A DNA stretch of 64,000 nt, taken from Prorocentrum cordatum. Taxonomy: Eukaryota; Sar; Dinophyceae; Prorocentrales; Prorocentraceae. The DNA lies in assembly GCA_963575745.1 (NCBI GenBank), contig CAUYUJ010014549.1, forward strand, positions 489,501-553,500. The letters are read 5' to 3'. The notes beneath the pieces were generated by a model. It was not told the origin of the DNA. It made no database searches and saw nothing but the letters and a program-made list of their open reading frames with translations. Positions 1 to 60,017 of this stretch are shown piece by piece (position 1 is the first letter of the stretch; each line of letters opens with the position of its first letter). The position numbers and the translations under genes are program-made.

Positions 1-22
1 CCTCACCGAGTGCCTCAGGGAC

Positions 23-21909: not shown

Positions 21910-21917
21910 ACATCGTT

Positions 21918-34561: not shown

Positions 34562-34960
34562 TGATGTAGCCAGCGGAAGGCGCCTGCCTGGTGGGGGGGG
34601 AACGCCACAGGGCAAGGTCACCAGTCGTCGGATGTGCGTCGTGTGGAGCGTATGGGGCGGGCCTTAGGCCTGCGGCCCCAGCCATCCAAAGTGAGCGCCC
34701 AAGCGGGAGAGACGGGCCCATGTCCGCGTGAACAAGGTCAAGGTGAACCGTGGGCAGGAATAATGGCAGCCAGTACGACACGGACTAAGAACCCACGATG
34801 CACCATGGGAATCTAGACGCAGCGTTGCGAGAGGTGCACCTCGCCCCCAGGAGGTGACACGAGGGTATTAAGGCCAAGGCCTGTCACTGCGGTGAAACGA
34901 GTCCCTGTCGTGAAAGAGCCACCCAATCGGCAGTGGCCCGCGGGGGCAGCTGTCAGTGTT
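34562..34960 (-). repeat. Direct repeat of about 395 bp, copy 1
   Basis: Matches 35131-35525 over nearly its whole length with scattered substitutions and small indels. Includes GTATGGGGCGGGCCTTAGGC and the near-palindromic CCCACGATGCACC. Probably 3' untranslated sequence of the giant element. Confidence 0.88.
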
Positions 34961-35130
34961 GAGCGCGCCCTATAGCGCGAGAACGAACACGTCGAACGGG
35001 CCGCCACAGCAGTCGTCGCGAAGGAAGAGGGGGGGGGGGCGCAGCCGATAGCCGCAAGTCAGTCGAATACAAAGGAGGAGGAGGAGGAGAACCATGTGGC
35101 GACACAGATAGTCGAGGACCCAACAAGGCG

Positions 35131-35525
35131 TAGTCGGAATGTAGTCGGCGGAAGGCGCCTGCCTGGTGGGGGGGAAACGCCACCAGAGCAACCAGTCGTC
35201 GGATGTGCAGCGCGTGGAGCGTATGGGGCGGGCCTTAGGCCTGCGGCCCCAGCCATCCAAAGTGAGTGTCCAAGCGGGCGAGACGGGCCCATGTCCGTGT
35301 GAACAAGGCCAAAGTGAACCGTGGGCAGAAAATATTGCAGCCATTACCACACGGGCTAATAGCCCACGATGCACCGTGGGAGTCTAGACGCAGTGTGAGT
35401 GGTGCTCCTCACCCCCAGTAGGTGACACGAGTGTATTCAGGCCAGGGCCTGCCACTGCGGTGAAACGAGCCCCTGTCGTGTAGGGGCCGCCCACGGAAGC
35501 GGTGGCCCGTGGGGGGCAGCCGTCC
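35131..35525 (-). repeat. Direct repeat of about 395 bp, copy 2
   Basis: Second copy; contains the perfect hairpin CCCACG-ATGCAC-CGTGGG near 35362 and the palindrome GTCTAGAC. Between the copies, near 35037, lies GCGCAGCCGATAGCCGCA, also found four times at the element's 5' end. Confidence 0.88.
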
Positions 35526-36533
35526 GCATCGGTTTATTTCCTCACCAATTGCGTGCCTGTGTGCAGCAAAGGGGCGGTTGAGGACCATAGGGCTGCCGAC
35601 CCATTGGGCCCCGCATGGCACGGAGGGGTCCCATATGGCCCACAGGGTCAGCGCGATGGAGACCACTTTGTATAGGGAGGTGGAGGCTGTCCCCAGCTGA
35701 CCGAGGTCGATGTTGTCCAGAAAGCAAGCGCTGCATTCCGTGACGGGCTGGGTGGCAACTCGGAGCATTGACATGCTCAGGGGGAAAACGGGCAGAGCGG
35801 CGACTCTGAGTGTCGTCCTGGGGGGGAAAGTGGCTTGAGCCGCAGACCAGCATCGTGGAGCGCTCTTGAGAGCGCAGGGGGGGGGGGCAAGAGCAGGGAG
35901 AGTGCGTGGAGCCCTAGCCGACTGTCCCTCGACGATGGGGCTGCCTTCCTGGGCCTGGGGAAATGGAGGGGACAACGTACCTTTTGGATAGACCAGGCGA
36001 GCTCACTTGCGGGCAAAGTCCCATCCGCGCTGTCGTTTGTCAGCGTAGTGAGCGTCTCCTCTGGGGACAATTCGTTTCTCCCTGGTCCTCCAGTCTGTGT
36101 CGGCCCACGTGCCTTGCCGGCGGTCCCGCCCCTCCCAGGACTGCCATGGGTCGCATTGGGCGGCTGAACTGGATGCGCCTGTCTGCGTGGCAACGCTGTA
36201 GTCGGTGTACACCGGGGGGGAACATGTGGCCTCTTTTGGTTTGCTCCATGGGTGCCGGCGATCATCTCCACTGGGCCCGCCTGAGGCAGCTGCTTGCGTG
36301 GCGCCTCTGTCGCCGGCGGGCACTTGGGGGGAACCTGGCGCAACATTGCTGCCGACAGCCCATGGATACGGGCGACCGCCTCCACTGGGACCTTTGGCGG
36401 TGCGTGTCTTGGTTTCGCGTTGTAACTGCTGGCGCTGCTTATCCATAATGGTTGGCCATTCTGCCATTCTACGTAGAGCTGGTGCTAGGCGTCGAAGCCT
36501 GCTTTGTTCCATGCCTGGAGGAAGTCTTCGCAC
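35526..36533 (-). CDS. Unknown 3'-terminal ORF region, broken frames
   Basis: Frames 36533-36003 and 35975-35409 have coding character: QRQQLQRETKTR helix and PWSKPKEATCSPP in the first, CSACFLDNIDLGQLGTASTS and SIALTLWAIWDPS in the second. I recognise no family. It continues the chain of - strand ORFs after the helicase and ends just before the duplicated 3' block. One or more frame changes are needed. Confidence 0.35.
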
Positions 36534-38390
36534 TGCTGTAAGGAATTCTTCCTGGGGTCGGACTTGATGATGACCCAGGGGCCCCCTTGCTTGTTGCCTG
36601 CCTTACGGGCCCAGGCGGTCCAGATCCCGTTGAAGGCGCCTCCCAGCGTCTTCTGTAGTCTGATGATCTTGTCTGGTGCTGGTTCGTCCTTGTTAGTATC
36701 TGCTTCGTTGATTGGCTTCAAGTACATGGGGAGACCGCCCATGGGGTCATCTGGGCGCGCTGGTGGGAGGGATGCTGCCTGAGGATCGCGCCCTCGACCT
36801 GCGCTGCGATGCTGCCAGGGCGAGCTAAGTGGCGGGCGGGCTGCGCGGCCAAGTGAGGCGTCTTCGGGAATAGAGGGTGGTCGGCGCTCTGACTTGTTTT
36901 CAACTAGCCTTAGCTGCCTGCCGTCGCCGATTTCGTCCTGGAGTGCACGGGCGCATGCGCTAGCGTACGGCGACCAGGCTGCTGAGTCGACCCTCTGGGG
37001 GGGTTGGGGCCACAGGATCGGCGGACTGTGGGAAGCCTCACTGTCGCTTGGTTCTGGGATGTCGGCCTCGACTGCCTGGTGTGTGGGACTGGCTTGAGCC
37101 ACGGAGTCAGTCCTGTCTGGTGGGATTCCCTGAGCCTGTCCTTCTGTCTCAGATCCCTTGTTGGACTCATCCCAGTCAACTTCATACTCGCCGCCGCCGC
37201 TTCCATACTTGTGTGGGGACGGCACGTCTCCTGCTTCTCCGTCAGACTGTCCTGGCGCGGCGGGTTGCTGGGGGGAAGCGTGGTCAGGGGAGGGGCCTGG
37301 TGATGCCACCAGGGGCTTGTTGAGCCAGACGGCTGTGGGGGATCCTCCTTCCTCAGCGCTACTGGTCTTTGCAACCTTGCGCTGGCCAGCGAGGAGCTCT
37401 ATTGTTCCTCCTGAAAGGTCATCCTTCATTCGTGATAGAAAGAGGGTTAGCGTGTCCAAAGGCTGCCGCTGGGGGCACTGTCCTTTCTGGTTGTCGAGTT
37501 TGTCTGCAAAGCACTGCCATTCCTCCTGGTACTTCGGGTTACTCTCCACTAGGTGCGTGACAACATTGGCCGCCGCGGCCCTCCGCCCGTCCCAGGGGAT
37601 GCGCGGGGGGTGCCCGTTCCTAGGTATCTCGCCCCGTAGATGGTGTCCAGGAAGAGCACCAGGTGCTCGAGAGACCACCCCGACTCGTCGGTCACCTCAC
37701 CCACTACGTCCCTTCCCCACCGCTGAGTGTGGGCCGCCCAGAGGGAGTAGACCGTGTGACTCCACTCAATCAGAAACTTGACCAACTCGCGGACGGGGCC
37801 TCTCGACTGCTCCCCAGCAAGACGGCGGGTGGAGTATGTGGGTAGTGGCGGTGCATTAGGTGGTGGAAGAACCGGTAGTGAGTAGCTGTGAGCACCTCCG
37901 CCATCTGTGTCTCCTTGTGGACGCGGAGCGAGCTTTGGTCGGCCGTCGGCAGTTGCCGTTGGTGAGTTGGAGCCTGCGGCTGGCGCTGGGCTGTTTGGGG
38001 AGAGATGCGTTGACATGTCGTAGATGCCCCACTCCTCTGAGATCTCGCTCATGGCTGGCCTCTGGGGGGGGGGGGGCTGGGGGGGCGTATATCTCGTTGG
38101 AGCATTGGTCCAGAATACGGTCGAGGGCGCTGGGGGCAATGTCCCAGATGTGAACCAGGCACCTCCTGCAAGCCCAGCTGGCGTTCCACTGCCTCTTGAT
38201 CCACAATGATGGCATTGCGTCCCACGATGGGAGACCTGTCTGATCGGTGCAATCCGCATCCGCCTCTGCGCGCCATATGAAACAACCCAAGGCTGGTGCG
38301 CCTGGCGACCACTATAGCAGGGGGGAACTGGGGGGACAGAAGTCACAAGTGGCCGAGTAGCATTTGGTTTGGTGCACCTCAATGCAGAAC
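36485..38390 (-). CDS. Unknown ORF with Cys-x2-Cys module, downstream of helicase
   Basis: Three overlapping frames (38290-37856, 38382-37549, 37678-36485) make one plausible protein. The first has DADCTDQTGLPSW, WACRRCLVHIWD and ILDQC, a possible zinc site. The second has PAMSEISEEWGIYDM and RELVKFLIEWSHTVYSLW, predicted helices. The third has NPKYQEEWQCFADKLDNQ and a long acidic/proline linker, then GGAFNGIWTAWARKAGNKQG at its end. No enzyme motif seen. Frame changes lie near G/C runs at about 38067-38076 and 37600. Confidence 0.4.
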
Positions 38391-40133
38391 CTGCCGTCGG
38401 TGAGCCTGTGTGGTGGGAGTGTGGTGCCTGCGCTGGCTGGGCGGAACTGGCGCGGCGTACGTAGGACGAGCTCCTTGAGGGCAGTCGGGGCTGTAGCGTC
38501 AGATGGCACCCCGAACCCCAGCGGCAGTCTGGATAGAGAGGGGAGTGTCTTGGCCCTTTTTCCGTGCGCGGTTTTCATCCAGTCTGCGTTTGTGCCCTTG
38601 CAATAGCCACTGCATGGACTTCCTGCTGCTGCGCTCTGTCGTGTCGGGTTCGGGGAGGTGTACCCCCTTCCTTTCCAGCGAGCTGGCCCAGCATTGCTCG
38701 CAGAGCCATCTGCAGTTCCTTCCTTCCGCGTACGCCTGCGCACGGTTCTGGGCTAGCAGCTCCCGAGTGTCGTCGTCTTCCCAGGTGCCTGCTGTTCCAT
38801 GTAGCCCGACGCTGGTGCATCCGTCGCGGTTGTAAGTGGCATCCTTCTGCCGCCTGCAGAAGCGCTCGTCGCGTACGATTGGGGGGAACAGTGATGTTCC
38901 TGGGGCCGGGGAGGCCGGGATGTCTTCGTCAAGTCGGTGGCTGGAGATTGCTACCCCGCCCCCAATGTACCGGAGGTCGCCCATGGCATGTGGGCTGCCT
39001 AGTCCCACCTCTGATCCCGCCAAGGCTGTGTGCAGCTGGCAGATGGAACACCCTCCAATGTTTAGCTGTGTGACGTCGGCAGGCCGGACTAGAGTTTCCA
39101 GCACGCGCAGGGGGGGCCTCCAGGGTGAAGTCATGTGTCTGCATTCCTGCCCATGTCTTCGGACATTCGTGCTTGGCTGCAACCTCATGGTGATGGGCAT
39201 ATGTGGCCAAGGTGCTAGTGTGGTGTATGACCTCAGCTAGCTTGGTGTGGAGGGAGGCGAGGTCCGCGAGCTGGAAACCCCACGTCTCAGCAAACTGGCT
39301 GCGGAACTCTTTGTGAGCCTCCTGCCACGGAAGGCACAGGCCCATCATGGCCTCAAGAATGTCGCCTGTGGCCTCTGGGTACGGGAAGGGCCAGAGTGTG
39401 GCGCGGGGCTCGCGTAGCTGCAGCATCATCACCACAAGTAGCACTCTGAATGTGTGGGGATTGAGGGGCAGCCCGTCGTCTCCTACTAGGGTTGCGTGAA
39501 ATCTGTATCGATCTTGTCGGTCTTGAGTAGGGCATGCAGGTTCTCCATTCCTGGGTGCACCCTGCGGCGTCTGCACCGGCAGGTGGGGCTGCTCCAGGCC
39601 GCGGGAAACTGTGGGAGCGTGCTCCGGGGGGCACAGCGGCTTGAGGCCTTGGGGCGGCGGTTGCTCCCAACCATGTGGGGCAGCGGTGGGAGCGAGTCGT
39701 ATGCGACGCCTAACTGCTTGTCGTGCCACGGCGTACCCAGACCGAGGAACCAGACCAGGGCTGCCCACGTGAGGTTATACACGAGGTTGCTGGCATCGAT
39801 TCCAACTTCCACATCTAAGCAGTAGCGAAGGTGACTCCAGGCCTTCCTGTCTAAGCTGCCCGGCTGCCTGGGGGTGGCCCCCATTTGCCACTGGTGGGGG
39901 TGCAGCCCGGACACTGTGTACAGAAGGATAGCCGTAGTGGGGTCGTCAACCAACTTCCGCATGCTATCCGAGAGAGCAGCACTCAGCTTGTCCCAAGAGA
40001 ACTGAGGATCGAGTGGTGCCGCGATGCGGTCTGCGAAGGTGCTCTCCATTCTGGCTTTGGCCTTCTTGATGGCGTCGTCTAGATCTTTTACGCTGTCGTC
40101 CCCTGTGTGTGTGTGGGAGCGGGGGGAAGCCAT
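38312..40133 (-). CDS. Unknown cysteine-containing ORF after helicase
   Basis: Starts at an ATG at 40133 (MASPRSHTHTGDDSVKDLDD). Frame 40133-39486 has AAPLDPQFSWDKLSAALSDS and NLVYNLTWAALVWFLGLGTP; it passes to frame 39768-38929 (FHATLVGDDGLPLNPHTFRV, FAETWGFQLADLASLHTKL) and then to frame 39200-38499 with GGCSICQLH, FCRRQKDATYNRDGC and CRWLCEQCW. The paired Cys motifs suggest zinc binding. Nothing indicates an enzyme. It may be part of the same polyprotein as the helicase or a second ORF. Confidence 0.45.
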
Positions 40134-40139
40134 GTCGCG

Positions 40140-43004
40140 AGGTCCATGATGGGGTTATTTTCTGATCAGTGTGCAGCGTGGTTATCTTGCCCAGGTTGGC
40201 CCCCTGGAAGCGGACCCATAGCTTGGCCAGCCTCCCGTACTCGGAGAGCTCCCTGAGGTGTGCTCCTGTGGCAGTGCCGAACATCCTTCCGTCCCCGATT
40301 ATGACCACGTTGGAAGTGGCCCGTGTGATTGCGACGTTCCTGTTGGGGTTGTCCATGAAGCCCCAGTCGTGCCAAAAGTTGGAACGCGTGGTCAGGTAGA
40401 TCACAATGTCCGCCTCCCCACCTTGGCTTGAGTCCATGGTGGAAATGGTGAGTCTGCCGTTGGCCAGGTACTCCTCTGCAACTTGACGTAGCCCTCGGAA
40501 GCGTAGGTCGATTCCAGTGAGGGGGGAACTCCACTGTTTGAACACGTTCGTATCCCTTGTGGTCGCTGTCGCGTTCGGGGGGGAGAGAGGTGTAGTCGCT
40601 TGTTCTGATTGCCTCACCTTTGCCGACTCCTTTCTCCCTGGCCTTGGCCTGTCCCAGGGCGCCGCTGATGCTGCGCCCTGTCTGAGGCCATCCGTTCTCG
40701 AGCACAGCGCACTGCAATTGATAGCCAACCACGACGAGGACTGTGGCCCCCTTCTCCATGGCGGGCAAGAGCGCCCGCACGATGCCCACCGCCTGCGCAG
40801 CCTCTGGGAGATTCGCGTACCCTGAGTGGAGGATGGACGAGACCTCGAGGGAGGGGTTGTCGACCAGGAGGAACCGATGCCTCTCCTCTGGGTGTTGTGG
40901 AGGGGGCTGAAGGTCCCTCAATAACTCCTCCAGGTCCTCCGGGGTGGACTCGGTGGCTTCGGCCAGTTCGATGAGTCGCGCACTGTCCCAGGGCAGTATC
41001 TGCTGCCACGGTAGTCCTGTCACCAGTGGCCTCTGTCTGAGTGGGTCGGTGAGTCCTGTCCGTATTGCCATGTTGTAGAAGACCACGTTGGGCCAGGACA
41101 GGAGGAGGGGGTGCATGCGGTAGCAGAGGGTCAGCTGCACCACTGCTGAGGTGTCCTCACCCAGTGCGTTGTGCAGCCGGTCGAATATCGAAAGAAACAG
41201 GCCGCGGTCGGCTGCTTTCCTGGAGAGGACGGTGGGGGGAAGCTGCTTGGGATCGCCGACCAGCAATAGGTGCCCGCCGGGGCATATGACGCTAACGAGA
41301 GACATTGCGGCCATCAGCTCGTGGGCCTGTCCTGCTTCGTCGATAATGAGCAGGGCAACCGGGGAGGCAAGTTTGAGGGACTCTGCCGCCTCGTGCGTTG
41401 CAATGATCATCTTGGCGTCCCTCAACAGCTGCGCGCGGAAGGCGATGAATTCCTTGGAGGGTCCGCTCTGGTGAGGGGGGCGGTTGTGTGTTCTGTGGAA
41501 ATGTCCCCCAGGTGCGAGGGGGGCGAGCTTCAGCGCAACGCGCGCGTCCTTTGCAAGCCTGACGCACCTGTTGGGGAAGCAAGCTCCGGGCGCCAACCTG
41601 CCGTCTTCGTGCGCAACCCCAAGGCCGATGGCGGGTTGATCGGCGGCTGTGTTCGACCCTGCCGTGAGGGCCACTGCCTGCCTCTTGGGAAGCGAGCTTG
41701 CCCAGGCGTCCATTGTGGCCACTGAGAAGAATGTTTTGCCTGTCCCGGGGGGGCCCATGAACCACCGTGACGTGGTGTCGAATGGTGGCGACCAGGGCCT
41801 TGGTAGCGTCCTCATTGAGTCGGTGGCGTCGGGCGGCGTCGTTCAGGTTGGTGATGGGGGGAAGGTTTCTGACCCGCTGGAGCACCTGTCCTGTAGCACT
41901 CTCAACTTCGTCGTCCGTGAATGGGGCGTCCGATGGCCCCTTGCTCTGCTGCTGCAGTTGCGCCGTGCCGTCCACCTCGATTGCGTGGGGAAGGCTGAGT
42001 GTCTTGGCCTCGATGGTGGCTCTCGTCCTGGAAAGAAGGGAGCTGCTGCACGTTCTGGTATTCTCCACTTCGTTAGCCCGTGCCCTGTCCTTTCTGTCGA
42101 TGGCGCGGTGGTTGAGTAGGAACGTAATGACGTCGAGCGGTGCACCTACCAGGTCGTCTGGGGCCTGCTGCAGTTTGTAGATCTCACTGATGGCGTTCGA
42201 AATTCGCCAGTATTGCAGCTTGGAGGGAGCTTTGTCCACTCGGTACACGACTTCGCCTTCCTTGTCTGACTTCGCGGGCGCTCCGTGTGGGAGTAACTCC
42301 CCAGTCTGACTGGGGGCGCACCAGGCCAGGGCTTGGTTGGTTGGGTACTTGGAGCCTGCCCTTAGTCCGATGACGTCGCACTCGTTGCGGGGAATGGTGC
42401 CTCCGAAGTCCGGGGGCCACGCGAGTTTGAGGGTGGTAATATGGTCCTCCGTTGGGCTGATGAGAATGAGAAGCAATGTACGTGACTGCGCGTCCAGTCC
42501 CCCTTCTAATCCTCGGAGCATGAGCTTGAACTCGACTGGCCATTGTAAATGCAAAAGCAGCTTTCCGTCCTGCGGGGGGAAAGCGTTGCGAAACTTGTAC
42601 TTGTCGAGAAGGAAGCAGGTGGACCGCTCGTTGATGGGGGTGACCGTCACCTCCAAGGCACAGCTGTTTTTACGTGCCAAGTCTGTTCTGGCCGTCGCGG
42701 AGCCGTCCCATACTGTTTCAGTGGCTGCCATGCACTCGGTCCAGGCTAACCTGCACAGAGTGCAGCCTCTTTGTCGTAGATCCTGCTCCCAGTGCTTTGG
42801 CAGGTTGACTCCTGTGGGGACCGCGCCCAGGGGGGTGTGCAGGCGGAACTGGGCCCCTGGGTTGTCAGCGGGTATGGCGTATAGCCGTATGATAGCCTTA
42901 GCTGCTGCGTCTGCAGGAGAGTCTGGTGTCGTCAGGCTGTCTTGGGGGGGAGCGTCGCTTGCCCAGTTGTCCTCGTCCCCTCGCGGTTGTCCTGTCCGAT
43001 CCAC
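40140..43004 (-). CDS. SF1 (UPF1-like) helicase with N-terminal domain, three frames
   Basis: An NTP-driven nucleic-acid helicase. N-terminal part (43004 to about 41750, frame 2) ends RLNEDATKALVATIRHHV. Then Walker A GPPGTGKT (about 41757-41731), DEAGQ (41341-41327), GDPKQLPPTV (about 41257-41229) and CYRMHP (about 41128-41112) in frame 1, and TMDSSQGGEADIV (about 40440-40406) and RNVAITRATS (about 40346-40318) in frame 0. The order and the DEAGQ box place it with UPF1-like SF1 helicases rather than PIF1/Helitron helicases. Frames change at G7 runs 41747-41753 and 40577-40583. It follows the RNase H directly, overlapping by 73 bp with a G7 run (42944-42950) at the join. Confidence 0.75.
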
Positions 43005-48263: not shown

Positions 48264-48293
48264 GGCGTCATCCCTTCTTGCCCTCCTCGCGCC

Positions 48294-48964: not shown

Positions 48965-49252
48965 AAATCTGGGGAGGCTGCTCCGGGGGGGTGGCGTTGA
49001 GAGCTTGTATCACATAGTCGAGTGTGAGGTTACCACACATGCTTTCCCATGTGGGTTGTGACCAGGGGTCTGTGTGTAGAAGAGACCAGAGGCTTCTTGG
49101 TCCGCGGATCTTGCGTTGACGCCTGGCTTCGAGTGCTTCGTTGAGAGCGCGTCGTGCCTGTGCCCAGGCAAGCGTGCGCATCCCCGGCACTAGTGCGTGT
49201 CGGGGAGGGGACCCCAGCGCTCTGTGGAACGCATTGGGGCCCCTGGTCGAGT
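48963..49252 (-). CDS. Helical linker between methyltransferase and endonuclease
   Basis: Frame 49190-48963 reads RTLAWAQARRALNEALEARR and then SLWSLLHTDPWSQPTWESMC, ending QALNATPPEQPPQI directly before the endonuclease. It appears to join methyltransferase and endonuclease in a single protein, allowing for a TAG near 49253 and a frame change near the G8 run at 48985. Confidence 0.4.
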
Positions 49253-50812
49253 CTAGGGGCGTGTCGACTCAGGAAGGAGGGCTTCCTCGCGTCTCAGCTG
49301 CTCTGCGATGTCGTCTGGGAACGGGTGGTTCCTGAGCCGTGCCCACGGGCATTGTCTCCTGGCATATGCTCGCGCTGTTGCCCATGCCTTTGCTATCTGG
49401 GCGCCTGTCGGGGCAGGGGAGCAGGCTGTCGCCTGTTGCTCTCCTGCGCTCCAGGCCCGCATTGCTGTGACTATTCTGCGTTGTAGGCAGCGAGGGTCGA
49501 AGTGTATGCCAACCGCGTCATAGAGAGCCCTGTCGCTCACTCCGAGTCCACGGTAGTATCCCGCCAAGCCTATGGCTCTTGCTCTTTCGTCGGCATTTGG
49601 GGGTCCGAGTCCGTGGGTTTTTCCTTCTTTAACTAGCCACCTCCCCCACGCCTTGACCTTGTCCTCCGCGGCCAGGCCCTCCCTTTCTTTACCGGACATG
49701 ACCAGCCCGAGGCCTTCTGTGCACCCTGGAAACCGTTGTTCTGCGCCACGCTCGCCGAGCGTCTGCCTCGCCCCTTGCTTCAGATTTGTCGGGTTCCGAA
49801 GAAACCACCTATAGCTGCTGTCTTCGTTGTATAGAAGGCAGAGGAGATGGGTCTGGTAGCTACTGGGTAGAATGGCGTCCAGGTCCTCCTGGGCTACCCT
49901 GGATCGCGCCCGCGTGGGGATTCGGCCGTCAGGCCTGTATGCCCATCTGGGCTCCCAAGGGCTGGGGAGTCGGTCGTATGTTATCGTGCTGGAGGGGGGG
50001 GGGGGGGGGAAGTTTGCTACCCGCAGCCTCTCCCTTGGGCTGGCCACGTGATCCCCTGCATTCATTTTGGCCGCCCATTCCGGGCTAAGTTCACCCATGG
50101 CAGTCCTCATAGCATCCTGGTGTACAAGCTGCATGGAGGCAACGTTTTCCACGAGGACGAGTATGGTAACGTCTGGTCTCCTTTTGTTCGCGAGGTACCA
50201 TGCTGTTGGGATGGCGAAGAAGTGGGAGGACTGTGCTCCTGCCAGTCCATCCCTGCCAGCACGCGCGCCAGCTGCCGATAGGTTGTTGCACGGGGGTCCT
50301 GCCACTATGAGGAGGGTGCTTCCTTGCTCGAGCGAGTCCAGGTGCTTCTCCCAAAAGGATATGTTGTCGTGGGGGTCTTTCCGCCTGAACAGGTCCCAAA
50401 CGTCTTCAGCTATTTGTCTATGCTGGGGGCCTCCGTCTTGGGGGTCTGGTGCATTTGCCCATCTGCGCGCCACCGCCTCTGCTGCCGTCCTGTTGTGTTC
50501 CACAAATACAGATGTTCGGAATTTGTTAACTGCGTCTAGTTTCCGTGCTAGGTCCCCTACCGCGAGTCTGGCGATACCCCAGCCGTCGAATAGCGACGCC
50601 AGGTGTAGGGGGGAACTTTCGCCCGTGTGGGAGTGCTGCGCTGCACGTCCGTCTCCACCTGCCCTCTGCTCCTGCTGTGTGAAATCCCGTTCCGCCACTT
50701 CCTGAACGTGTAGCCTGCCCGTGATGTCGTCGGCTGCTTGGTCAGGTCCTAAACGGATGGTGCCTTGTTCATGCAGGGACTGAAGTGCCTCCCGGATGGT
50801 ACTGTTGTCCAA
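49253..50812 (-). CDS. C5-cytosine DNA methyltransferase (DNMT3-like) of the giant LINE
   Basis: 519 residues, uninterrupted. SAM motif I LASLFDGWGIARLAV (about 50593), motif II SVFVEHNRTAAEAV, motif IV AGPPCNNLSAAG with the catalytic Pro-Cys (50299-50282) followed by a GLAGAQSSHFF stretch, motif VI LVENVASM (about 50150-50130), and RERLRVANF (about 50035-50010) as motif VIII. The PCNxLS box and the GL-x-G...FF that follows recall DNMT3 more than DNMT1. A C-terminal helical part of about 200 residues is not assigned. Methylation of cytosines in the element's own DNA or at its target is the natural guess. The G18 run at 49992-50009 lies in the coding region (proline run) and keeps frame. Confidence 0.8.
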   Translation of the reverse strand: MDNSTIREALQSLHEQGTIRLGPDQAADDITGRLHVQEVAERDFTQQEQRAGGDGRAAQHSHTGESSPLHLASLFDGWGIARLAVGDLARKLDAVNKFRTSVFVEHNRTAAEAVARRWANAPDPQDGGPQHRQIAEDVWDLFRRKDPHDNISFWEKHLDSLEQGSTLLIVAGPPCNNLSAAGARAGRDGLAGAQSSHFFAIPTAWYLANKRRPDVTILVLVENVASMQLVHQDAMRTAMGELSPEWAAKMNAGDHVASPRERLRVANFPPPPPSSTITYDRLPSPWEPRWAYRPDGRIPTRARSRVAQEDLDAILPSSYQTHLLCLLYNEDSSYRWFLRNPTNLKQGARQTLGERGAEQRFPGCTEGLGLVMSGKEREGLAAEDKVKAWGRWLVKEGKTHGLGPPNADERARAIGLAGYYRGLGVSDRALYDAVGIHFDPRCLQRRIVTAMRAWSAGEQQATACSPAPTGAQIAKAWATARAYARRQCPWARLRNHPFPDDIAEQLRREEALLPESTRP

Positions 50813-51854
50813 TCCAGCTGCCTGATAGGCGGCAAGTACCTGGTTGGGGGGGGCTACTGGGGCGAGCCCAGTTACGCTGTCCCTGTGCTGCGACCATACC
50901 TGTTGGAGAACGTCAATCGGTTGAGGGGCTGCGGTGGGTTCACTGGGGATGTGGGGGTTGATTCTCGGTCTTGCCCTTCTTGTTATTTATCCTGCTCCTT
51001 GCTGCTCTGCTAAGGCGCGCGCACGGCCCCTTCCAGGTCGCGTCTGTGTTGGCGCTACTGGTTGAGATTCCCACATTGTCATCAGGGTCCAGGGGTTGTT
51101 CTCTGCCGTCCTTGGCGCTCCCGTCCTTGCCCTGCGTCTTAGCCTGGTTTCCCGGTGGCCTGTTTGTTGGGTCCGTCTGCTTCGGCCCCTGCTCTGCAGT
51201 CGTACCGAGCCCCTCCGCGTCCTGCTTCTGCCCTGTCGTTCTGTCTGGTCTGAAGGCTGGCGTTGTGGTGTAGTCCCCTCGGCCGCGCTGGCTCCTGCAC
51301 GCTGCCCATCGTTGTCCAGCCTCCTCTGTTGGGGCGTTGGGGGGGGTTCTGCCCCAGCTTCCTGCGAGGGTCGCTCGGCGGGACTCCCCAGGGGCGGTTA
51401 TCCCCTGAGGTTGGGCCAGGTGGGGTCGACTGTCCTCAGCCCGCTGGGGCTGGGGCCGGGACTGCTACCGGCGGCCGCGGAGAGTATTTCTTCAAGAGCC
51501 ACTTCGGTTAGGGGGGGGCAGGGGCTCGCAGGCCCGCCTGCGTCGGGGCTCCTGCCTGTTGCGTCTTGTAGGTGTGCGCATGCGTCATCCGCTGTTAGGG
51601 CTGCGTCCTTTGATGTTAGGTTTCTTCCGTTTGGGCTCCTTGTGCCGACTGGTGGGTGCCGCGCCCAGTACGCCTTGAAGGGGGCGATCAGCCTGTGTGA
51701 CATAAATGCTCTGGTGAATACTTGTCGCAACTGCTTCTCGAGTTGCAGCATTCACGTGCCCCAAGCTGTGGCGCTTAGTACTGTCCTCCATTTTGCTTCG
51801 TCCGTACATCCCAGCCCGTTCCATTGGGCGGGTGGGCCAAGGGTGCGGAGCGTC
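50813..51854 (-). CDS. Unknown region upstream of methyltransferase
   Basis: Short coding-like pieces in frames 52075-51752 (RRQWEQLLSNAAETLRTLG, DEAKWRTVLSATAWG) and 51751-51398 (QLEKQLRQVFTRAFMSHRL, LTEVALEEILSAAAGS) connect the Pro-rich ORF to the methyltransferase. No domain recognised; needs at least two frame changes. Confidence 0.35.
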
Positions 51855-53618
51855 TCAGCTGCATTGCTGAGGAGTTGCTCCCATTGGCGCCTCATGCAAG
51901 GTGGCACGTGTGCGCTCGCCCTGGGAGTATCGCCTCTTCCGAACGGGTCTCCGGGTGGGGTTCGGGCGACGCTGTGGGGGTGGTCTTGGTCTACCCGCCT
52001 GTGCTCGCGGTACCCCTTCTGCCTGGACCTGGCCTGCTGGTTCCTGTTGGGCTTGGTTCCCCCCGTCGCCTTCACCTGTCAGTACGTTTCCTTCCGTCAG
52101 GGGGGCAGGTGTCGTTGCCGTCGGGTGTGTGATCCCTGTCTCTCCCCGCTGAGGGGCCGGGTGCTGCGGGCGATGCCCCTCGAGGGTTTCTGTGGGCTGC
52201 TGCATTTGTTGGTGCCGCGTTCCCGTCGGCATCTCCGCATGTGGTGGGACCTGCGTTCGCGGGCTCTGCCGTCCTGCGTGCTCGGCCCCGCGGCGTCTAT
52301 CCCCACCTTCCTGGCTGGGGGTGCCTGCCGTTCCCGTGCTTGGGGTGTCGCTCGCGTGGGCGCATCCTGGGGATGCCGACGGTGTGGCGTTGCCCTCGCC
52401 GTTGCCTCCCCCTTCTCGATGTCTCGGGATGCTCGCTGGGGAATGGGGCACTTGGCTGCCCGGGCGCACGGTCTGCGGTGTGCCCGTCTGCACCGCGGGG
52501 GATGGGGTGGCCTGTCGACGTGGGGGGCTGTTGGAAGGGGTCTGCGGGCCCTGGGGAGGCTCCCGGCCCTCCGCCTGTGGGGCGTCTTGCCCCCTGCCGC
52601 GTGTCCCTTGCGGCTGCTCTTGCCTGGTCCGCGTATTCCGAACTCTGGCCTCTCCTATGGGGTCCACTTGATTGCTTCTGGGGGTCCTTCGTGGCCTGGG
52701 CGCTCTCCCTGGGTCGTGTCGCAATCTGTCCTGGCAGGCGGCCCTTCGGAGATGGGAGCCGCTACCCTTTTCGGGGGTCTTTAGTAGGAGGACTCCTACC
52801 CCCTTGAGGCCCGCTCTGTATCCTAGGGTTGCAGCCGCTTCTGCGGCCGCTGTCAGGGCGATACAGGTGGCGGCGGAAGAGACGGGGATGTGCACGGAGT
52901 CGGATGCCTCGCTGGGCCTCCAAGTGCTTCCGTTGCTGTTGGTCGCTAAGGCGGTTTGCGCTGCGATCTGGAGGGCTTCAATGTGGGAGTCATCTGGGGT
53001 CTGGCCTTGCATCGTCCTGTTGGGAAGGCATCGGACCACGTGGTGGTATAGTGGCTCCAGTCCTTCTCTTAGGAGGGTCTCGTCCCTGGGTGGGGGTATC
53101 CTGGTGGTGGCCCACTCAACGTCTCCAGGCGTCAAGTCCGAGTCTTCTAACATTTGCCTCCACCTTAGAATCTGGGCCACTACGGCGTCGTTCCTTTGCT
53201 CTGGCGCAAGTATGTGCAAAGCGTCGCTGGTGTCCACATCGCCACCTCCCCAGCGTACTACCACGGAGGGTGGGGACACTGTTCTTTGAGGGTTGCCCGC
53301 AATGTCGAACTGTGCCGCCACTAGCTGCGCCGGGGGGGGATTGCTGCGCCCTGTTATCACCGGGTCCCCTATAGGGAGCAGGTGCGTGATCATGTTGGTG
53401 GCCCGGTATCCCCATTGCGCGCTGGCGATGGCGATGAGTTCGGTTGGGTCTGGGCCTCCCGGCGTCGGGACTCCACGCCCTGTCAAGGCAATGATCCTGC
53501 AGGGGCCCACCCCCGAGGTTGCCGCCGCCAGCGCGGCCTGCAGCTGGGAAGCGCTGGCGTCCGCTATGAGGATGGTGGGGTTAGTGTGTCCCTCCTCTTG
53601 GGCATTCCTGTTGTTCAC
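51855..53618 (-). CDS. Unknown ORF with ordered N-terminus and Pro/Gln/Arg-rich tail
   Basis: 587-residue open frame. The first about 290 residues look folded (TILIADASASQLQAALAAAT, ELIAIASAQWGYRATNMITH, NDAVVAQILRWRQMLEDSDL, ISSAATCIALTAAAEAAAT-like helices); the rest is basic, proline-rich low complexity ending near 51855. I do not recognise the fold. It sits between the RING and methyltransferase parts. Confidence 0.5.
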   Translation of the reverse strand: MNNRNAQEEGHTNPTILIADASASQLQAALAAATSGVGPCRIIALTGRGVPTPGGPDPTELIAIASAQWGYRATNMITHLLPIGDPVITGRSNPPPAQLVAAQFDIAGNPQRTVSPPSVVVRWGGGDVDTSDALHILAPEQRNDAVVAQILRWRQMLEDSDLTPGDVEWATTRIPPPRDETLLREGLEPLYHHVVRCLPNRTMQGQTPDDSHIEALQIAAQTALATNSNGSTWRPSEASDSVHIPVSSAATCIALTAAAEAAATLGYRAGLKGVGVLLLKTPEKGSGSHLRRAACQDRLRHDPGRAPRPRRTPRSNQVDPIGEARVRNTRTRQEQPQGTRGRGQDAPQAEGREPPQGPQTPSNSPPRRQATPSPAVQTGTPQTVRPGSQVPHSPASIPRHREGGGNGEGNATPSASPGCAHASDTPSTGTAGTPSQEGGDRRRGAEHAGRQSPRTQVPPHAEMPTGTRHQQMQQPTETLEGHRPQHPAPQRGETGITHPTATTPAPLTEGNVLTGEGDGGNQAQQEPAGQVQAEGVPRAQAGRPRPPPQRRPNPTRRPVRKRRYSQGERTRATLHEAPMGATPQQCS

Positions 53619-53697
53619 TAGTCCTTTAACCTGCTCGTAGGCGCTAGGGCTGAGCAGCGCTATTGCGGTGCCCGTGTCGTCCGCGTGTCTGCCCCTA

Positions 53698-55538
53698 TTA
53701 GCGGTTCTCTTGTGATGAGTAGTTCTGCCCGCGGCTCCTTGACTGCCGCCATGAGCAGACTGGGAAGGTTGGTGGTCCTCTCTTTCTGGATCCTCCTTGT
53801 GGATGTCTGGCTAGGATGACAGCCCATCTGTTCTGAGTAATGGCCGGGGTTGACCTCATTCTTTCTTGTCTGGATGGGGGAACCGGTGCGTTACCGCCTC
53901 CTTGTCCCTCTTCGTCGGCGTGATCGGAGGGTGGAGTCGTACTGTCGGGGTCATGGTCCGTCTCATCGTCCACGTCCATTCCTTCTGGCTGCGCTGGGGG
54001 CCTTCTGCTGTCCGCTACGTATTCTTGGATTCTCTGCATGTCCCTGACTGTGATGTAGGTGTTCGGCCTCCGCATGGTCATTAGGTCAGCCCTTAGGTAA
54101 TCAAGCTCCGTTGCCAGTGCGGCTGTCGAAACTGCTAGCTCGCCGTATGTGATGTGGGGCCTTATTGGGACCAGGATTCCGTCTCTCAACTGTAGCGTTG
54201 CTTGTGCCTCGTTGGGGGAGGGGGGGGGGGGAGGATGTCCTGGTAGCAGCGCCGCGACGCTACCTCTGTCGCTGGCTCTGCAATATGGGCAACGAACAAG
54301 CATGGCGTTATTTCTCTCCCTGAATACTCCTGGCTGGCTCAGTCTCCATTGCTCGAGGCATTGTTTGCGAAACCGATGTCCACATGGCCTAGGACTTCCA
54401 CCACCACTCCTCGGAGCTCCCCAATACAGATGGCGCATGTTTGCTCCCCTTCCCCGGCGTCCCATGCCGGCATTTGCTCTGGCTGGCCTGCTCGGAGAGC
54501 CTCTTCAGCGTCACCGGGTGGGTCGGGCGAGTTGGCAATGGCTGCGCCGATGCTTTCTATGAGGAGTCGTGTTGTAGTGACTGCTTCTCCCCCCGTTAGA
54601 CACGCCTTGAGTCCAGCGGCGCGCACGAGGAGGCGTATTTGTAGGTTCCCGAACGGGGAGTAGGCTCCTGGAGGGTGTCCCCCCCCTTCGCTCAGTATGC
54701 GTCTGATGTCTTCGGGGGTGTGTATATCTGCGATTTGCAGCCACCTGGTGAGGGCCTCAAACGGTCGGTTGTCGATGCTCCGTGCCTGCAGTACGGGCCG
54801 TAGGAGGGGGGTGTAGTGGGGCGCTAGGCAGAGCCATATGGCTCTTGATTTCCAATCCCCTGGTTCGAGCTGAGCTCTGGTTTCTCTTAGCAACCCTTCT
54901 GCCACTACCTTGGCCTCTTTTCCGTTGAGGGAGGTGCGGTCTATACTCTGCTGCCTAGACCTGCCTGCGGCCTCGTCGTCTCTCTGTGTCGCGTCTAATG
55001 CCCGTATTAGGGCGTCCAGGGTTTCTCCTCCGTTGAGTGTCTGCGCGGTTGGTCTGTGGCTGTTGCTAGCTTGGTCGCCCAGCATGTGCCTGATGTCTTC
55101 GTGCCACGGTGTGGTGGTGTCTTGTGCTCTTCCTCTCGAGGGGGAGGCGGGCTGTTGTCCCCCTGCTGTGTTGTTCCCTATTCCGCTGCTCCTATCCTGG
55201 GCCCTGGCGTTCCGCAGGCGCGTGCCGCGGTCCACCGCGCCCCTGTCTGCTGTTAGTACTGCCTCCTGTAGTTGGCCGCGGGGATCGAGCCATCCCATGA
55301 TGCTTTCCTGGAGCTGAGGATCTATATACCCCCCTGGTAGCGGGGCCGCGATCGCTCTTCCTGTCTGTCGAGCGAGGCTAGCTGCTGCTAGTCCAAGTCT
55401 GTGGTGTGCTCCTTCGGGTGATGCGACGCCCGTCTGCTGCCATCTCTCGCCAGCACGTCTGGCGAGGGAGCGGGGGATTCCCGTGGTTTCAAACACGCGC
55501 TCGAGCGTTGCCCTTCCGTCCTCTGTCGCCGGCTTCAT
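53698..55538 (-). CDS. ORF with C-terminal RING finger, split by a frame change
   Basis: Frame 55538-54339 starts MKPATEDGRATLERVFETTG, has a helical body, and ends EQTCAICIGEL (first Cys pair, 54437-54426). The remaining ligands are in frame 54465-53698: RPCGHRFRKQCLEQW (54387-54358) and VRCPYCRA (54291-54280). Together they give C-x2-C...C-x-H-x3-C...C-x2-C, a RING pattern, broken by a one-base shift around 54400. RING domains usually act as E3 ubiquitin ligases or dimer contacts. The 180 residues after the RING include an acidic patch (DVDDETDHDPDS). A retroelement RING is unusual. Confidence 0.6.
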
Positions 55539-55544
55539 GTGATG

Positions 55545-56135
55545 TCATGTGATGTTGGGGGGAATGGTGTCGTTCGCCACTTGGGTGCGGATCTCGCGGA
55601 TATCCTGTAGTACTCGTCGCGCGTTCCCCTCGCTTCTCGGGGGGGGGGGGGTGGTCGGGCTTTGCCTTGGCATGTGGGTTGCGCGCGTCTCATTCTCTTC
55701 TCTTCTAATGCTCCGTTGATCGCCCCCTCGGGCTACCGGAGCCCCCGTTCCTCGCGCCCTCGTACGCAGTGCGACTGCCAGACGCATCGCCTCTCCACAC
55801 GGGCTGCCAGAAGCTAGACTGTAGGCTATGATTATTCCGTTGTTTCTGGCGGCCGCCACGATGGCCCGGCAAGCCACCTCAGTTGCTTCTACCGCTTCGG
55901 CGCTCGCGTCTGTTGCCCAGTCCCTGTCCGCTGGGGTGATAAAGAGAGAGCCTGGTCTATGAACGAGCCCCCTATTTCTCGCCGGAGCCATTCCACGTCT
56001 TCGGCAGGGAGTATTTCGAAGCATTGTCGGTACCTTGCCCTTGGACCCTGTGCGCTGTGTACGGAGCTTACCCCCGCTGGGGACTGAGCCGGCATGGTGA
56101 CAGTTGGGACTCGCGCGAGGCATCTTGGCACCCAG
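55545..56135 (-). CDS. Unknown ORF
   Basis: C-terminal part of frame 56360-55545: ADRDWATDASAEAVEATEVA, CRAIVAAARNNGIIIAYSLA, GEAMRLAVALRTRARG and a final REIRTQVANDTIPPNIT, with an amphipathic helical look. The word TDAS here is not in an RNase H context. Function unknown. Confidence 0.4.
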   Translation of the reverse strand: MGAKMPRASPNCHHAGSVPSGGKLRTQRTGSKGKVPTMLRNTPCRRRGMAPARNRGLVHRPGSLFITPADRDWATDASAEAVEATEVACRAIVAAARNNGIIIAYSLASGSPCGEAMRLAVALRTRARGTGAPVARGGDQRSIRREENETRATHMPRQSPTTPPPPRSEGNARRVLQDIREIRTQVANDTIPPNIT

Positions 56136-56143
56136 TCCCGTAA

Positions 56144-57133
56144 CTACCTGCCGAACGGGTGCTCCCTGATGGTGTGCTGTATGTGTGACATTGCTTCCAT
56201 GACCCATCCCATCGGGGCACAGCAGAGTCTGGCCAGAGAACCCGCCGCTGCCCGAAATGCCGGGTCGTCCCATACTCCCGTGTCTCCCGCCGCGGCAGGG
56301 CATGCTCCAGATTCTGCCCCCCTGCCGCTTTCCAGTGCTACTTCCGTCATGTGGCTCCATGCTGCGAGAAGCTCAGCGATGAGCCACGACGGGGAAAAAC
56401 TGGTGGCCTCTGGCGGGGGGATGTGGGGGTCTATGTGGCTTGCGATAGGTGCGTACCGAGCTCCCACTCTGGCCAGCTGGAAGGTAAGCCTTGTGCCTAA
56501 TAGATCCAGGGGGTGTCTGGGGGCTTCAAGGTTGCCCGTGTGCGTCTCGTCCGTAGAGGTCACCCATGGTGATCCTAACCTGCGGCACACAATGCAATTG
56601 GGGATGTCCTGTCGCGTGTTCCAGCAGCCACCGTGCCCGCATCTGCCGTTGGGGTGGAAGAAGCCTCCGAACCTTATAATTTGCGAGGTGCTGTTTATGG
56701 GCCAGGGTCCTGCCAAGTTGACGCCCTCGGAGTGTCTGGGTCCGCCTATGTCTGGAGTCTGCGGCTCGGCACTGGGGATGGCTGGAGTGACCCAATCGTC
56801 CCGGCCTGTGCCGCACTGTGGCAAGGAGAGGACGTCAGCCCCTGTATCGACCCAGTGTCCTCTGCTAATAGCCCACTGCTTGACTTCGCTATGGTCTGGG
56901 AAGTGAACCGTGTTACGACGGTGCTCGTGGACCACATGTTCGCACAGCCTGGACTTGTGCTCTGAGTTGGTGTCAGCTGGGCCGTTCTCCGCCACGTCCG
57001 GTGCAGGGTCGTGTCGCCACCTGGACAAACCGAGGAGAGTTGGGGGGAAGAGGCCCTCTGCCGGGTCACACGCTCCAATGTCCACGTAGAGAGCAGCGTG
57101 GCGTAGTATGTCGTATTCCCTTTTCTGCCGCAA
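56144..57133 (-). CDS. Unknown ORF with zinc-ribbon-like cluster
   Basis: 329 residues, uninterrupted. GGFFHPNGRCGHGGCWNT (56640-56622 for the CGHGGC) is followed by DIPNCIVCRRLG (CIVC at 56596-56585), giving Cys-x4-Cys...Cys-x2-Cys. Upstream is a segment with YVDIGACDPAEG, downstream a helical half (LLGTRLTFQLARVGARYAPI). No enzyme motif identified. Being uninterrupted for 1 kb in a region of broken frames supports real coding. Confidence 0.5.
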   Translation of the reverse strand: MRQKREYDILRHAALYVDIGACDPAEGLFPPTLLGLSRWRHDPAPDVAENGPADTNSEHKSRLCEHVVHEHRRNTVHFPDHSEVKQWAISRGHWVDTGADVLSLPQCGTGRDDWVTPAIPSAEPQTPDIGGPRHSEGVNLAGPWPINSTSQIIRFGGFFHPNGRCGHGGCWNTRQDIPNCIVCRRLGSPWVTSTDETHTGNLEAPRHPLDLLGTRLTFQLARVGARYAPIASHIDPHIPPPEATSFSPSWLIAELLAAWSHMTEVALESGRGAESGACPAAAGDTGVWDDPAFRAAAGSLARLCCAPMGWVMEAMSHIQHTIREHPFGR

Positions 57134-58453
57134 TGGTTTATTCCTGCGTTGGTTCCTCGAAGTCCTGGATTTCTGCTTCGATGTCTGGATCTTGTGACAG
57201 ACTCGCGTAGCGGAAAAGCGAGCACCTGGACTGGGTCCGGCCCTACTCGACCGAGCCTAGCCTCATGATCGGATCCTCTGATGGACCAGACCAGCCAGGA
57301 GAGATCCAGCTGAGCCATCGCTGAGGCGCAGCTGCGGAAGCTTCTTGTGCTTTCTTGCTCCTGCATCGTGGGCCCGGGGTCTCCCCTGTGCGAGCGGTTG
57401 TTTCCCCTTGTAGCGGGGGGGCCTGCGTTCCGTGGGGGGTGTCGGAGCCAGCAGAGGCTGATTAGCTCCACCAGCCCCTCGCGCATGGCCTGGCTGCGAG
57501 TGGGGTCACTGGGGATGCTCTTCCATGGCCCATCCCTAGGCTCCTGTTGCTCCAGTAGGGCCGAGATAGGACCCCCTCTCATGGTGTTCCTGGGGTCCAT
57601 AACTATTGGGGCGAGGCAGGGTGAGTCAATGTTGCGTGACACCCGTCGTCTTGGTGGAAGGGGGGTCTGGGCTGGGGCGTGCGTCCCCCCTGTCTGTGAA
57701 TGTCCTCCCACCTTCCTGGGCTGCGTGACCTTGAGCCGGGAGGAGGAGCAGGCCAGATGCCTGGGGGGGGGAGATTGGGCTGTCGAGACCGCGAGCGTCC
57801 GAATCGATGCTGATCCCGTCGTCGCTCTCCCAATCATGCGCCCACACGTCGCTCGGGGTGTCATTTCCTCGTTCGCCCTCGTTTGGAGGCGACCCCCCCA
57901 CAGCGTCCGTCCCTGTCCTCATGGCGCGGCCATGCTCCGTGTGATGCTGCCTCTCTCCGTCCGCGCGGATTCCTATCGGCTCGAATGGCACAGCGGGGGA
58001 TATTTCGACGTCCTCTGTCGCGTCAGTCCTGGGCAGCCAGGCCGGGAAAGCCGCAGTTGGATCATGTGGAGGGAGGGGGGCCCTGCCGGGGGAAGCCCTG
58101 CCGGGGGAGGCCACGACTCGGCCCCCGCTGGGAGTCTCTGGCGCGTGATGCATCGCCTCGCGTGCGCTGCTTTGTGCAGCACCTATCTCCTCCGCAGGGG
58201 CTAGGAGGTCCTGCATCTGCGGGCAGGCGTCGTCGGCGCCCCTCCCTGCCAGGCCCCCTTCCTGGTCGTGTGGGGGGCCTCGCGCCGTGCCTCGGGCCCT
58301 ACTCGGGCGCCCGTTTGTCCGCGTGCCAGGGCTAGTCTCTTCCCTCTGAGCGACGCCACGATCTGGGTTACTGACCCCAGATGCCACCTCGGATGCTTCT
58401 GTGTCCTGAAATGGTGGACGTTCGTGGGCCGCTGCCAGATCGTCGCGCACCAT
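57134..58453 (-). CDS. Low-complexity N-terminal ORF region
   Basis: Frame 58453-57626 is open for 275 residues and rich in Pro, Ala, Arg and acidic residues (DVWAHDWESDDGISIDSD). Frame 57864-56746 overlaps and has coding-like pieces (CWLRHPPRN, ISALLEQQEPRDGP). No fold recognised; probably a disordered linker. Confidence 0.35.
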
Positions 58454-58469
58454 GTGAGGGGGAGTAGAG

Positions 58470-59220
58470 GGGGGGGGCGCAGCCGATAGCCGCAGACACG
58501 GGTAAATTGGAGGAGCGGGGGGAAGAGACGGACCTGTGCGCCCTCGCGAGGCTCGAGTCGTCGGCGTCTGTCTCTGCTTGAGCTGGCGCTGGCACTATGT
58601 GGGGGGGAAGGATCCTCGGTGGACTGCCTATGTCACGTTGGGGGCCATGACCCTGTCCAGTTGTGGGGGGAACATGCGTGATAGGAGGATGGGAGGGGGA
58701 GGAGGCGCAGCCGATAGCCGCAGTATCTGGTAAATTGATGGAGGGGAGAGAGCGGTCGTCGATGTGCGTTCGCATGGCGCCGTCTTCCTCTCTGGAACCG
58801 GCCCGTTCAGCGCCTGGTGTTTCGGCCACCCTTGTCCCGCCGTCCTGGTCGAGGGCGCTGTTACCCAGTTACCCACCGCTGGGGGAAGAGCAGGCGTGCC
58901 CTGCGCCGTCGGAGGAGGAGAGGAGGAGGCGCAGCCGATAGCCGCAAGATCGGGTAAATTGAAGGAGGAGGGGGAGCCGTCATTGGTGTGCGTCCGCGTG
59001 GAGCCTGGGTCGTCTGGGATGGATCTCCTCACGTCAGACTGCGGGGGGACTGCTGCTGCCACTGTCGGGGGGAATCCAGTAACAGGCGCTCCACTGGCCA
59101 GTCCCTGAACATCGTGCCCAACCGCGGATGACGTCGCATGAGAGCCTTGCACGGTAGGAGGATGAGAAGAGGAGAAGGCGCAGCCGATAGCCGCAAGATC
59201 TGGTGAATTGAAGGAGGAGA
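58470..59220 (-). repeat. Tandem imperfect repeat, four units of about 225-250 bp
   Basis: GCGCAGCCGATAGCCGCA occurs at about 58478, 58706, 58930 and 59178, each next to a GGTAAATTG-like word and a GGAGGAGGAG stretch. On the - strand it codes the recurring peptide FNLPDLAAIGCA (variants INLPDTAAIGCA, FNSPDLAAIGCA). A fifth copy of the core lies at 35037, beyond the other end of the element. Confidence 0.85.
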
Positions 59221-60017
59221 GGGGGGGGGGGGGCGGTGATGTCTCTGCTGGCGTCATCCTGCGGAGGGTCCTCCGTCGACACCGTCGGGGGAAAGCGTCG
59301 TCTTCCCTTCGGTGTCCAGCATCGTCTTCGCCTGGGCGCCCTTCTCCCACTGTCCCACGTGTGGATTCTGTGGCTCCATTTCCAACCGCTGTGGGCTGGG
59401 CTGCGTCCGATGCTCGGGCCCCAGGTGGGCTGTCCACCCCCCTTCGCGGGGGGGGAGGGGAGGCGTGGGGGGAACTGGGATATGCTCAGGATTCGTCGCC
59501 GTGTCCGGGCCATCCCCCGGTACCTGGGAGTCTCCTTCCACCAAGCAAGGAGGAGGAGGTCTCAGACTTACCCTCGGTGCTGGGTCTGCCACGCCTGTGG
59601 GCGAAGGCTGCTCCATGTGGGGGGGCGTTGTCCCGATCGGTGGCAGTAGATGAACTCCCGAGCCATGTACTGTACGATCTGCGTCGTCATCCTCTCCATC
59701 TGGCGGGTCAGGCATCGTCTGCGTGGCCGCCGGGGGGACACCGCGTTCCTGGGCGGGGGGAACGGAGCGGCATCCGGGCGCCCCCTTGAAAGGTGGGAGA
59801 CTGCCCCGGAGGGGGCAGGCCCACCAGACGGCTTGAGCCAGGCTACGGAGTTTTTACCTACGCATAACAGCAAAAGATGTCCATCCAGATTGAGATCAAC
59901 GATATCTCTCCGACAGTGGCAGCGGGGCAGTTCATCCCGCGGCTGCATCGGCAGCGACGGCGGCCTCCTGGCCTCGGCTGCAGCGCGGCCCCCTGCGGCG
60001 CAGGACGCTCCCATCAC
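59221..60017 (-). CDS. N-terminal low-complexity ORF of the giant element
   Basis: Frames 59437-58628, 59715-59254 and 60017-59568 overlap in - strand coding-like sequence: a short ordered part (DLNLDGHLLLLCVGKNSVAW) at the start, then RMTTQIVQYMAREFIYCH and Pro/Ser-rich runs. No domain recognised. The 5' limit is uncertain; the + strand copia-like element begins within about 200 bp. Confidence 0.35.

Follow-up and report, generated by a model that had tools for sequence, protein, structure and literature searches.

Introduction

Long interspersed nuclear elements (LINEs) ordinarily measure 4–8 kb. Retroelements of tens of kilobases that hold several open reading frames (ORFs) include the terminons, which are giant Penelope-like elements. 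Here we describe a ~27-kb element of the dinoflagellate Prorocentrum cordatum, found in a window (the whole stretch of DNA analysed, 64,000 nucleotides) corresponding to positions 489501–553500 of contig C13700 (CAUYUJ010014549.1) in genome G000, whose assembly comprises 4.13 Gb in 21,875 contigs. Unlike terminons, whose reverse transcriptase (RT) is of the Penelope type, this element has an APE-type endonuclease and the LINE order of domains. To our knowledge, its copies are possibly the longest LINEs described.

The closest described system is SymbioLINE-Dnmt of Symbiodinium (de Mendoza et al. 2018, PMC5890265), a LINE which, according to the sections of that paper drawn on here, bears a DNA methyltransferase (DNMT) ORF upstream of the RT ORF and is flanked by target duplications. 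Just like SymbioLINE-Dnmt, the P. cordatum element carries a cytosine methyltransferase-like ORF upstream of the RT ORF and has target-site duplications and conserved untranslated ends; a figure legend also lists an endonuclease, RT and RNase H for SymbioLINE-Dnmt. The two are set apart, as far as the description goes, by the word “helicase”, which occurs 0 times in the main text of PMC5890265, and by a RING finger, which the sections used do not mention. SymbioLINE-Dnmt is said there to have no poly-A tail; here a short run of ~5–8 A, which in two copies contains a C, precedes the 3′ target repeat. The same sections describe SymbioDIRS-Dnmt3 and KnitGypsy-Dnmt3, which are likewise retrotransposons with a cytosine methyltransferase, but they belong to the DIRS and Gypsy elements rather than to the LINEs, and their methyltransferase is part of Pol. 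LINEs of the TRAS/R1 clade and Jockey have been described with a superfamily 1 (SF1) helicase (PMC6338049, in part); the passages concerned report, in insects, viral SF1 helicase sequences, whereas the helicase found here is closest to UPF1/IGHMBP2 and occupies its own ORF.

No such element appears in the passages retrieved from a review of dinoflagellate genomics (PMC11453091), and no LINE with the full set is described in the titles and abstract openings of the open-licence papers that our searches listed. An earlier reading of the window from its letters alone (the sequence-only reading) had known of no described LINE with this full set. A methyltransferase-carrying LINE is in fact already published (PMC5890265, as described in the sections used), while the combination of helicase, RING finger and size was not found in the literature searched, so the set is new only in part.

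Results

Copies and Ends of the Element

Six copies from the same genome, named here by contig, were fetched at about full span and aligned to the window (w denotes a window position). All six were collinear with the window element, with ~89–94% identity across long blocks. The 5′ end was common to four of them (alignment reaching w59848–59849) and the 3′ end to five (w33991–33998). Three copies, C16400 (26.5 kb), C9424 (28.1 kb) and C21211 (27.5 kb), share both ends with the window, and two are truncated at the 5′ side (at w49184 and w48578) while retaining the common 3′ end. These repeated copies with the same ends show that the methyltransferase, RING and helicase parts move together as one unit. 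We conclude, with a probability of about 0.9, that the element is one autonomous multi-ORF non-LTR (long terminal repeat) retrotransposon, i.e., a LINE, of ~27 kb (Table 1).

The sequence-only reading had proposed one giant LINE with all recognisable domains on one strand, and suggested looking for other copies with the same order and shared ends. The collinear copies bear it out in both respects; its ends, placed at 34562 and 60017, are shifted by the copy comparison to w33997 and w59849, and its size of ~25 kb was an underestimate, the complete copies being 26.5–28.1 kb long. The window copy itself is decayed, with frames interrupted by stops and frame changes, and lacks ~1.6–1.8 kb at w52752 that are present in four other copies. 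A coding signal runs along the minus strand from ~w58 kb to w35.5 kb with few gaps, shifting frame every 1–2 kb and crossed by stops. From 5′ to 3′, the layout comprises an upstream coding region with the RING finger, the methyltransferase ORF, the endonuclease–RT–RNase H ORF, and the UPF1-like helicase ORF with a long tail.

Table 1. Features of the element in the window copy.
Feature	Position	Strand	Remark
Whole element	33997..59849	−	25.9 kb in the window copy; ends common to other copies
5′ target-site repeat, decayed	59849..59862	−	12 of 14 bases match the 3′ repeat, by eye
Relict dinoflagellate spliced leader CCGTAGCC..GGCTCAAG	59832..59848	−	5′ end of the element
5′ leader with four copies of GCGGCTATCGGCTGCGC	58477..59194	−	17-mer count
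Upstream coding region, broken	51404..58276	−	Frame path; deletion at w52752
RING finger, split by a frame change	54277..54440	−	Limits approximate; 19.4 bits
C5 cytosine methyltransferase-like ORF	49253..50986	−	All matches weak, below curated cut-offs
Main LINE ORF (pre-endonuclease region, APE-type endonuclease, RT, Cys/His stretch, RNase H)	43815..49271	−	Three stops and frame changes; limits approximate
APE-type endonuclease	48294..49000	−	Aligned with homologues
RT core (PF00078)	46527..46943	−	Pfam
RNase H	44057..44422	−	Weak Pfam match; aligned in homologues
Helicase ORF (UPF1-like SF1 type, with a lysine-rich start and Cys motifs)	40141..43717	−	Pfam; copy comparison
Long tail 3′ of the helicase	36215..40139	−	No known domain matched; in two copies the frame stays open from the helicase end
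3′ untranslated region (two repeats of 206 nt; the 5′ 17-mer once)	34620..35396	−	
Short A tail	33997..34001	−	Comparison of copies
3′ target-site repeat, decayed	33983..33996	−	By eye

The element shows the features of an APE-type LINE: the endonuclease lies N-terminal to RT in one ORF, 5′ truncation is combined with a constant 3′ end, and the target site is duplicated. It is without long terminal repeats, no direct repeat of at least 40 bases linking its ends among the 20 of 26 repeat families listed, and no tyrosine recombinase, the enzyme that marks DIRS elements, was found in the 20 ORFs scanned inside it, the match at w1–3102 lying outside. The same 17-mer, GCGGCTATCGGCTGCGC, occurs at both element ends, with five matches in the window (four near the 5′ end, one near the 3′ end) vs. 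0.02 expected. Scans for RNA families and tRNAs gave no match.

A search with the spliced-leader pattern gave one match in the window vs. none in 100 shuffles, and a leader-like sequence occupies the same 5′ place in C16400, C9424, C12125, C21211 (with one base changed) and C17333. Relict spliced leaders are described as marks of retroposition in the part of PMC6050394 used here. Taken together, the 5′ truncation, the A tail and the spliced leader point to an RNA intermediate. Across the 5′ ends in L011, L012, L017, L026, L057 and w59832–59848, both halves of the relict leader are kept, while its middle, which reads ATTT in the known sequence, carries a different change in most of the copies. 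A large DNA virus, a virophage-like element or a DNA transposon that captured a LINE would account for the size, the helicase and the methyltransferase, all of which fit such viruses and transposons. A viral origin of retrotransposon methyltransferases is, moreover, considered in PMC5890265, in the sections drawn on. Besides the marks of an RNA intermediate, however, such an origin is opposed by the ORFs scanned, where no capsid, polymerase B or integrase family was found, and by the 25 longest inverted repeats listed, none of which links both ends; we regard it as highly improbable.

Linkage of the Parts across Copies

If copies ended between RNase H and the helicase, or between the methyltransferase and the endonuclease, the parts would belong to separate elements, as the sequence-only reading had pointed out. 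This was tested on 39 RT copies, the window's own copy being left out; each genome search scored 40 first-look candidates, whose total numbers are not copy counts. These totals rise toward the 3′ end, from 346 for the methyltransferase through 577 for RT and 740 for the helicase to 951 for the 3′ end, where the query was shorter. Among the listed matches, the methyltransferase and RT were spaced by 3.04–3.26 kb in 25 of 39 copies (another distance in 2, no listed partner in 12), and RT and the helicase by 5.4–5.9 kb in 17 (4 had a different distance and 18 lacked a listed partner), both spacings being present in 11 of 39. Helicase–3′ end pairs were listed in 8 of 39, with no listed partner in 31. 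No RT–helicase or RT–methyltransferase pair on one contig had its members on opposite strands.

Twenty-two RT copies had no helicase listed in place; for 15 of them the expected spot was then fetched. It held the helicase in nine (shifted by ~0.8 kb in C2558), element DNA from further 3′ in two, element DNA of the other strand in one (C20138), and none in three; in four of the seven copies left unfetched, a helicase lies elsewhere on the contig. The helicase is thus in place in 26 of the 39 RT copies (17 listed and 9 fetched) and at another distance on the same strand in 4. For the methyltransferase, the spot was fetched for 9 of the 14 copies where it was not in place, and was found to contain it in two and part of it in one, six being without it; the remaining five include two shown to be 5′-truncated and two with a methyltransferase elsewhere. 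This brings the methyltransferase to 27 of 39 (25 listed and 2 fetched), and the parts hold together as that reading had claimed. Starting from the other side, 17 strong hits of the 5′ region (weaker and partial ones left out) had RT at 12.9–13.4 kb in 10 cases, at another distance in 2, and no listed partner in 5; in 8 of those 10 the helicase followed at 18.7–19.2 kb. In C12125 the helicase lies 23.5 kb from RT, suggesting a nested insertion.

Coding Regions

All named domains lie on the minus strand in the order given by the sequence-only reading. In the profile searches of the window, RT (RVT_1, 39.6 bits, cut-off 29.6) and the helicase (AAA_11, 75.5 bits; AAA_12, 49.4 bits; cut-off 27) exceeded their cut-offs, whereas RNase H (RVT_3, 16.9 bits, cut-off 21.6), the methyltransferase (16.0 bits, cut-off 22) and the RING finger (19.4 bits, cut-off 27.3) remained below, and the endonuclease had no Pfam match among the window frames scanned. 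The RING finger is unbroken in C21211, where it scores 34.4 bits.

A protein search with the endonuclease–RT part gave five metagenome homologues, P0129–P0133 (1582–1811 amino acids, 33–56% identity), which jointly align from w49259 to w43895. The endonuclease cut-off was passed by two of the five, the RNase H cut-off by one, and the RT cut-off by none, four having RT scores within ~2.5 bits of it and P0129 scoring 23.9 bits. In four homologues the start lies slightly before the endonuclease segment, and in P0131 near it; four end just past RNase H and P0133 stops short of it. These extents indicate that neither the methyltransferase nor the helicase is fused to RT in these relatives. The short patterns used to look for relatives in viral_contigs and genome_contigs found none. 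Furthermore, the methyltransferase stop codon is kept in three of the four other copies aligned there (the fourth has a deletion), a stop follows RNase H within ~40 codons in all five other copies, and the helicase starts with ATG in the same number (5/5; ACG in the window). Together with the stand-alone homologues, this allows us to conclude that the element is multi-ORF rather than encoding one polyprotein.

The naming of the putative methyltransferase follows mainly from motifs, SLFDGWG, GPPC and ENV in the window ORF, which we take to be cytosine methyltransferase motifs. Four such ORFs taken from other copies also stay below the Pfam cut-off of 22, with a maximum of 17.8 bits in two and no match in the other two; the NCBIfam match reaches 15.5 bits vs. 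a cut-off of 100.65, and DRM2 chains are the best, weak, matches in the PDB. For the most part, the element has a lower CpG observed/expected ratio than its flanks. As a sign of methylation, CpG decay was tried and not upheld: CpG sites unanimous in the other copies were changed at 4.3%, within the range of 2.7–5.7% for five other dinucleotides, which gives no clear support for methylation decay.

The helicase is closest to UPF1/IGHMBP2, and the search for its homologues was filled by ordinary helicases of this kind. A microsatellite (AAT/AAG) at w43.7 kb was considered as the LINE 3′ end and rejected, as it codes for the lysine-rich start of the helicase ORF, with an ATG in all five other copies. 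In C21211 and C9424 the helicase end continues in frame into the long tail, which in C16643 (L021, 4095–7334) is open for 1079 amino acids, has several paired cysteines, and matched no known domain in the scans.

Selection was assessed in diverged copies, 78–86% identical to the window, for which seven of the nine helicase stretches fetched were used (L031 was left out and L038 grouped with the tail). Third codon positions differ ~2.2–5 times as often as first and second ones in all seven helicase stretches and in both methyltransferase stretches, indicating that both proteins were under selection; in the tail, a clear excess was seen in one of three stretches. Close copies show a small excess, and none for the methyltransferase, as expected if most of their changes came after insertion. 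These data bear on the view that the element is a composite and its helicase block a formerly separate passenger, now always carried along as useless 3′ sequence. The RNase H ORF does end before the helicase, which has a start codon of its own, but the third-position excess in 7/7 stretches and the constant place of the block in the unit make a useless passenger very unlikely.

Target Site and Flanks

Four copies (C16400, C9424, C21211 and C16643, the last of them truncated) have a 13–14-bp target repeat on both sides, and their common 13-mer shows no more than one mismatch. The sequence GTA(N)CCCCACCAG follows the A run on the 3′ side, and the same 13-mer ends the 5′ flank in these four copies; C12125 has a one-base variant of it on the 5′ side.

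One could suppose an ordinary ~5.5-kb LINE that lies in a host cluster with a methyltransferase and a helicase and was later segmentally duplicated. The homologues are indeed stand-alone endonuclease–RT–RNase H proteins, and duplication does occur: C21211 and C13373 share their 3′ flanks, as do C9424 and C21577, meaning that the copies are not all independent, and C18224 holds three RT copies ~43 kb apart (with one of similar score on C1959), which suggests segmental duplication. However, the 5′ flanks of C16400, C9424, C12125 and C21211 diverge beyond the target while the first element base is identical, and the 3′ flanks of C16400, C16643 and C21211 differ from one another. Moreover, the target repeats flank the unit, and truncated copies share a 3′ end beyond the helicase. 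A duplicated host cluster is thus hardly credible.

A 20-mer, GCTTCGCGTATCCCCACCAG, stands ahead of the element in four copies, unchanged in C16400 and C9424 and with a single change in C16643 and C17333. It has 11,233 exact occurrences in the genome vs. 0 for the reversed control. Among 16 such sites fetched, 13 run on into a related CCC(A/G)TC..AAAC repeat (its first base altered in some), L070 continues with the apparent 3′ region of the element (by eye), and two with other sequence; ATTCT..AC stands ahead of the 20-mer in 11, and further upstream no common sequence was seen except simple repeats. The rest of such a repeat apparently lies 3′ of C21211 (by eye). Insertion of the LINE therefore appears to take place close to where an abundant repeat begins, a site that the endonuclease itself may choose. 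As a separate observation, the 20-mer stands at the head of several repeat families, with otherwise unrelated DNA in front of it (L059–L074), in the manner of a shared leader or a common insertion target.

Neighboring Features

At 1–3102 on the plus strand, a 1033-amino-acid open frame weakly matches the tyrosine recombinase family (PF00589; 25.1 bits vs. a cut-off of 27.1) and belongs to a different mobile element. On the minus strand, the last third of a 707-amino-acid open frame (21199–23322) is methyltransferase-like by eye (FLELFAGSGGLSARI, GTPCASWSR), with no Pfam match. A tandem array of ~42 copies of a 101-bp C-rich unit spans 4017–8209.

Discussion

Several observations weigh against a single autonomous LINE with a preferred target. 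The five metagenome homologues span the endonuclease–RT–RNase H ORF only, and a search for chimeric proteins found no methyltransferase or helicase relatives of ~815–2590 amino acids. Open frames were checked in five copies, two of them 5′-truncated, and none of the five was unbroken; the methyltransferase shows no third-position excess among close copies. Four of the 39 RT copies are without sense-strand element DNA at the expected helicase place, and six are without the methyltransferase, unexplained, though 5′ truncation would account for them. The 5′-region query gave 457 candidates, a number that does not fit the gradient; internal repeats within this query may be the reason. As to the target, the repeats differ at position 4 in three of four pairs, the truncated copy C21577 is without a target repeat at its 5′ side and has a 3′ flank in common with C9424, and the common target motif does not occur in the flanks of the window copy. 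Finally, C21211 and C13373, given their common 3′ flank, are one insertion counted twice, and others may be too.

For the giant LINE, we propose that a long transcript would be trans-spliced with the leader, the endonuclease would nick a preferred GTATCCCCACCAG target, and RT would copy the RNA in place by target-primed reverse transcription. The internal ORFs may be translated from separately trans-spliced messages, and the putative methyltransferase, RING ligase and helicase could help the element cope with silencing by the host, with host proteins and with RNA decay. More generally, we see roughly even odds that these copies represent a class of giant LINEs which copy a ~27-kb spliced-leader-capped RNA into a preferred repeat by a single target-primed event, express their ORFs via host trans-splicing, and carry a methyltransferase, a ubiquitin-ligase-like RING protein and a UPF1-like helicase as counter-defence or RNA-protection genes.

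A ~27-kb LINE copied up to its spliced leader raises the question of what length a single reverse transcriptase can cover by target-primed copying. It also shows a retroelement collecting genes of RNA decay, ubiquitin and DNA methylation. In dinoflagellates, where spliced-leader retrogenes are many, such an element is a candidate for supplying the enzyme activity that underlies them.

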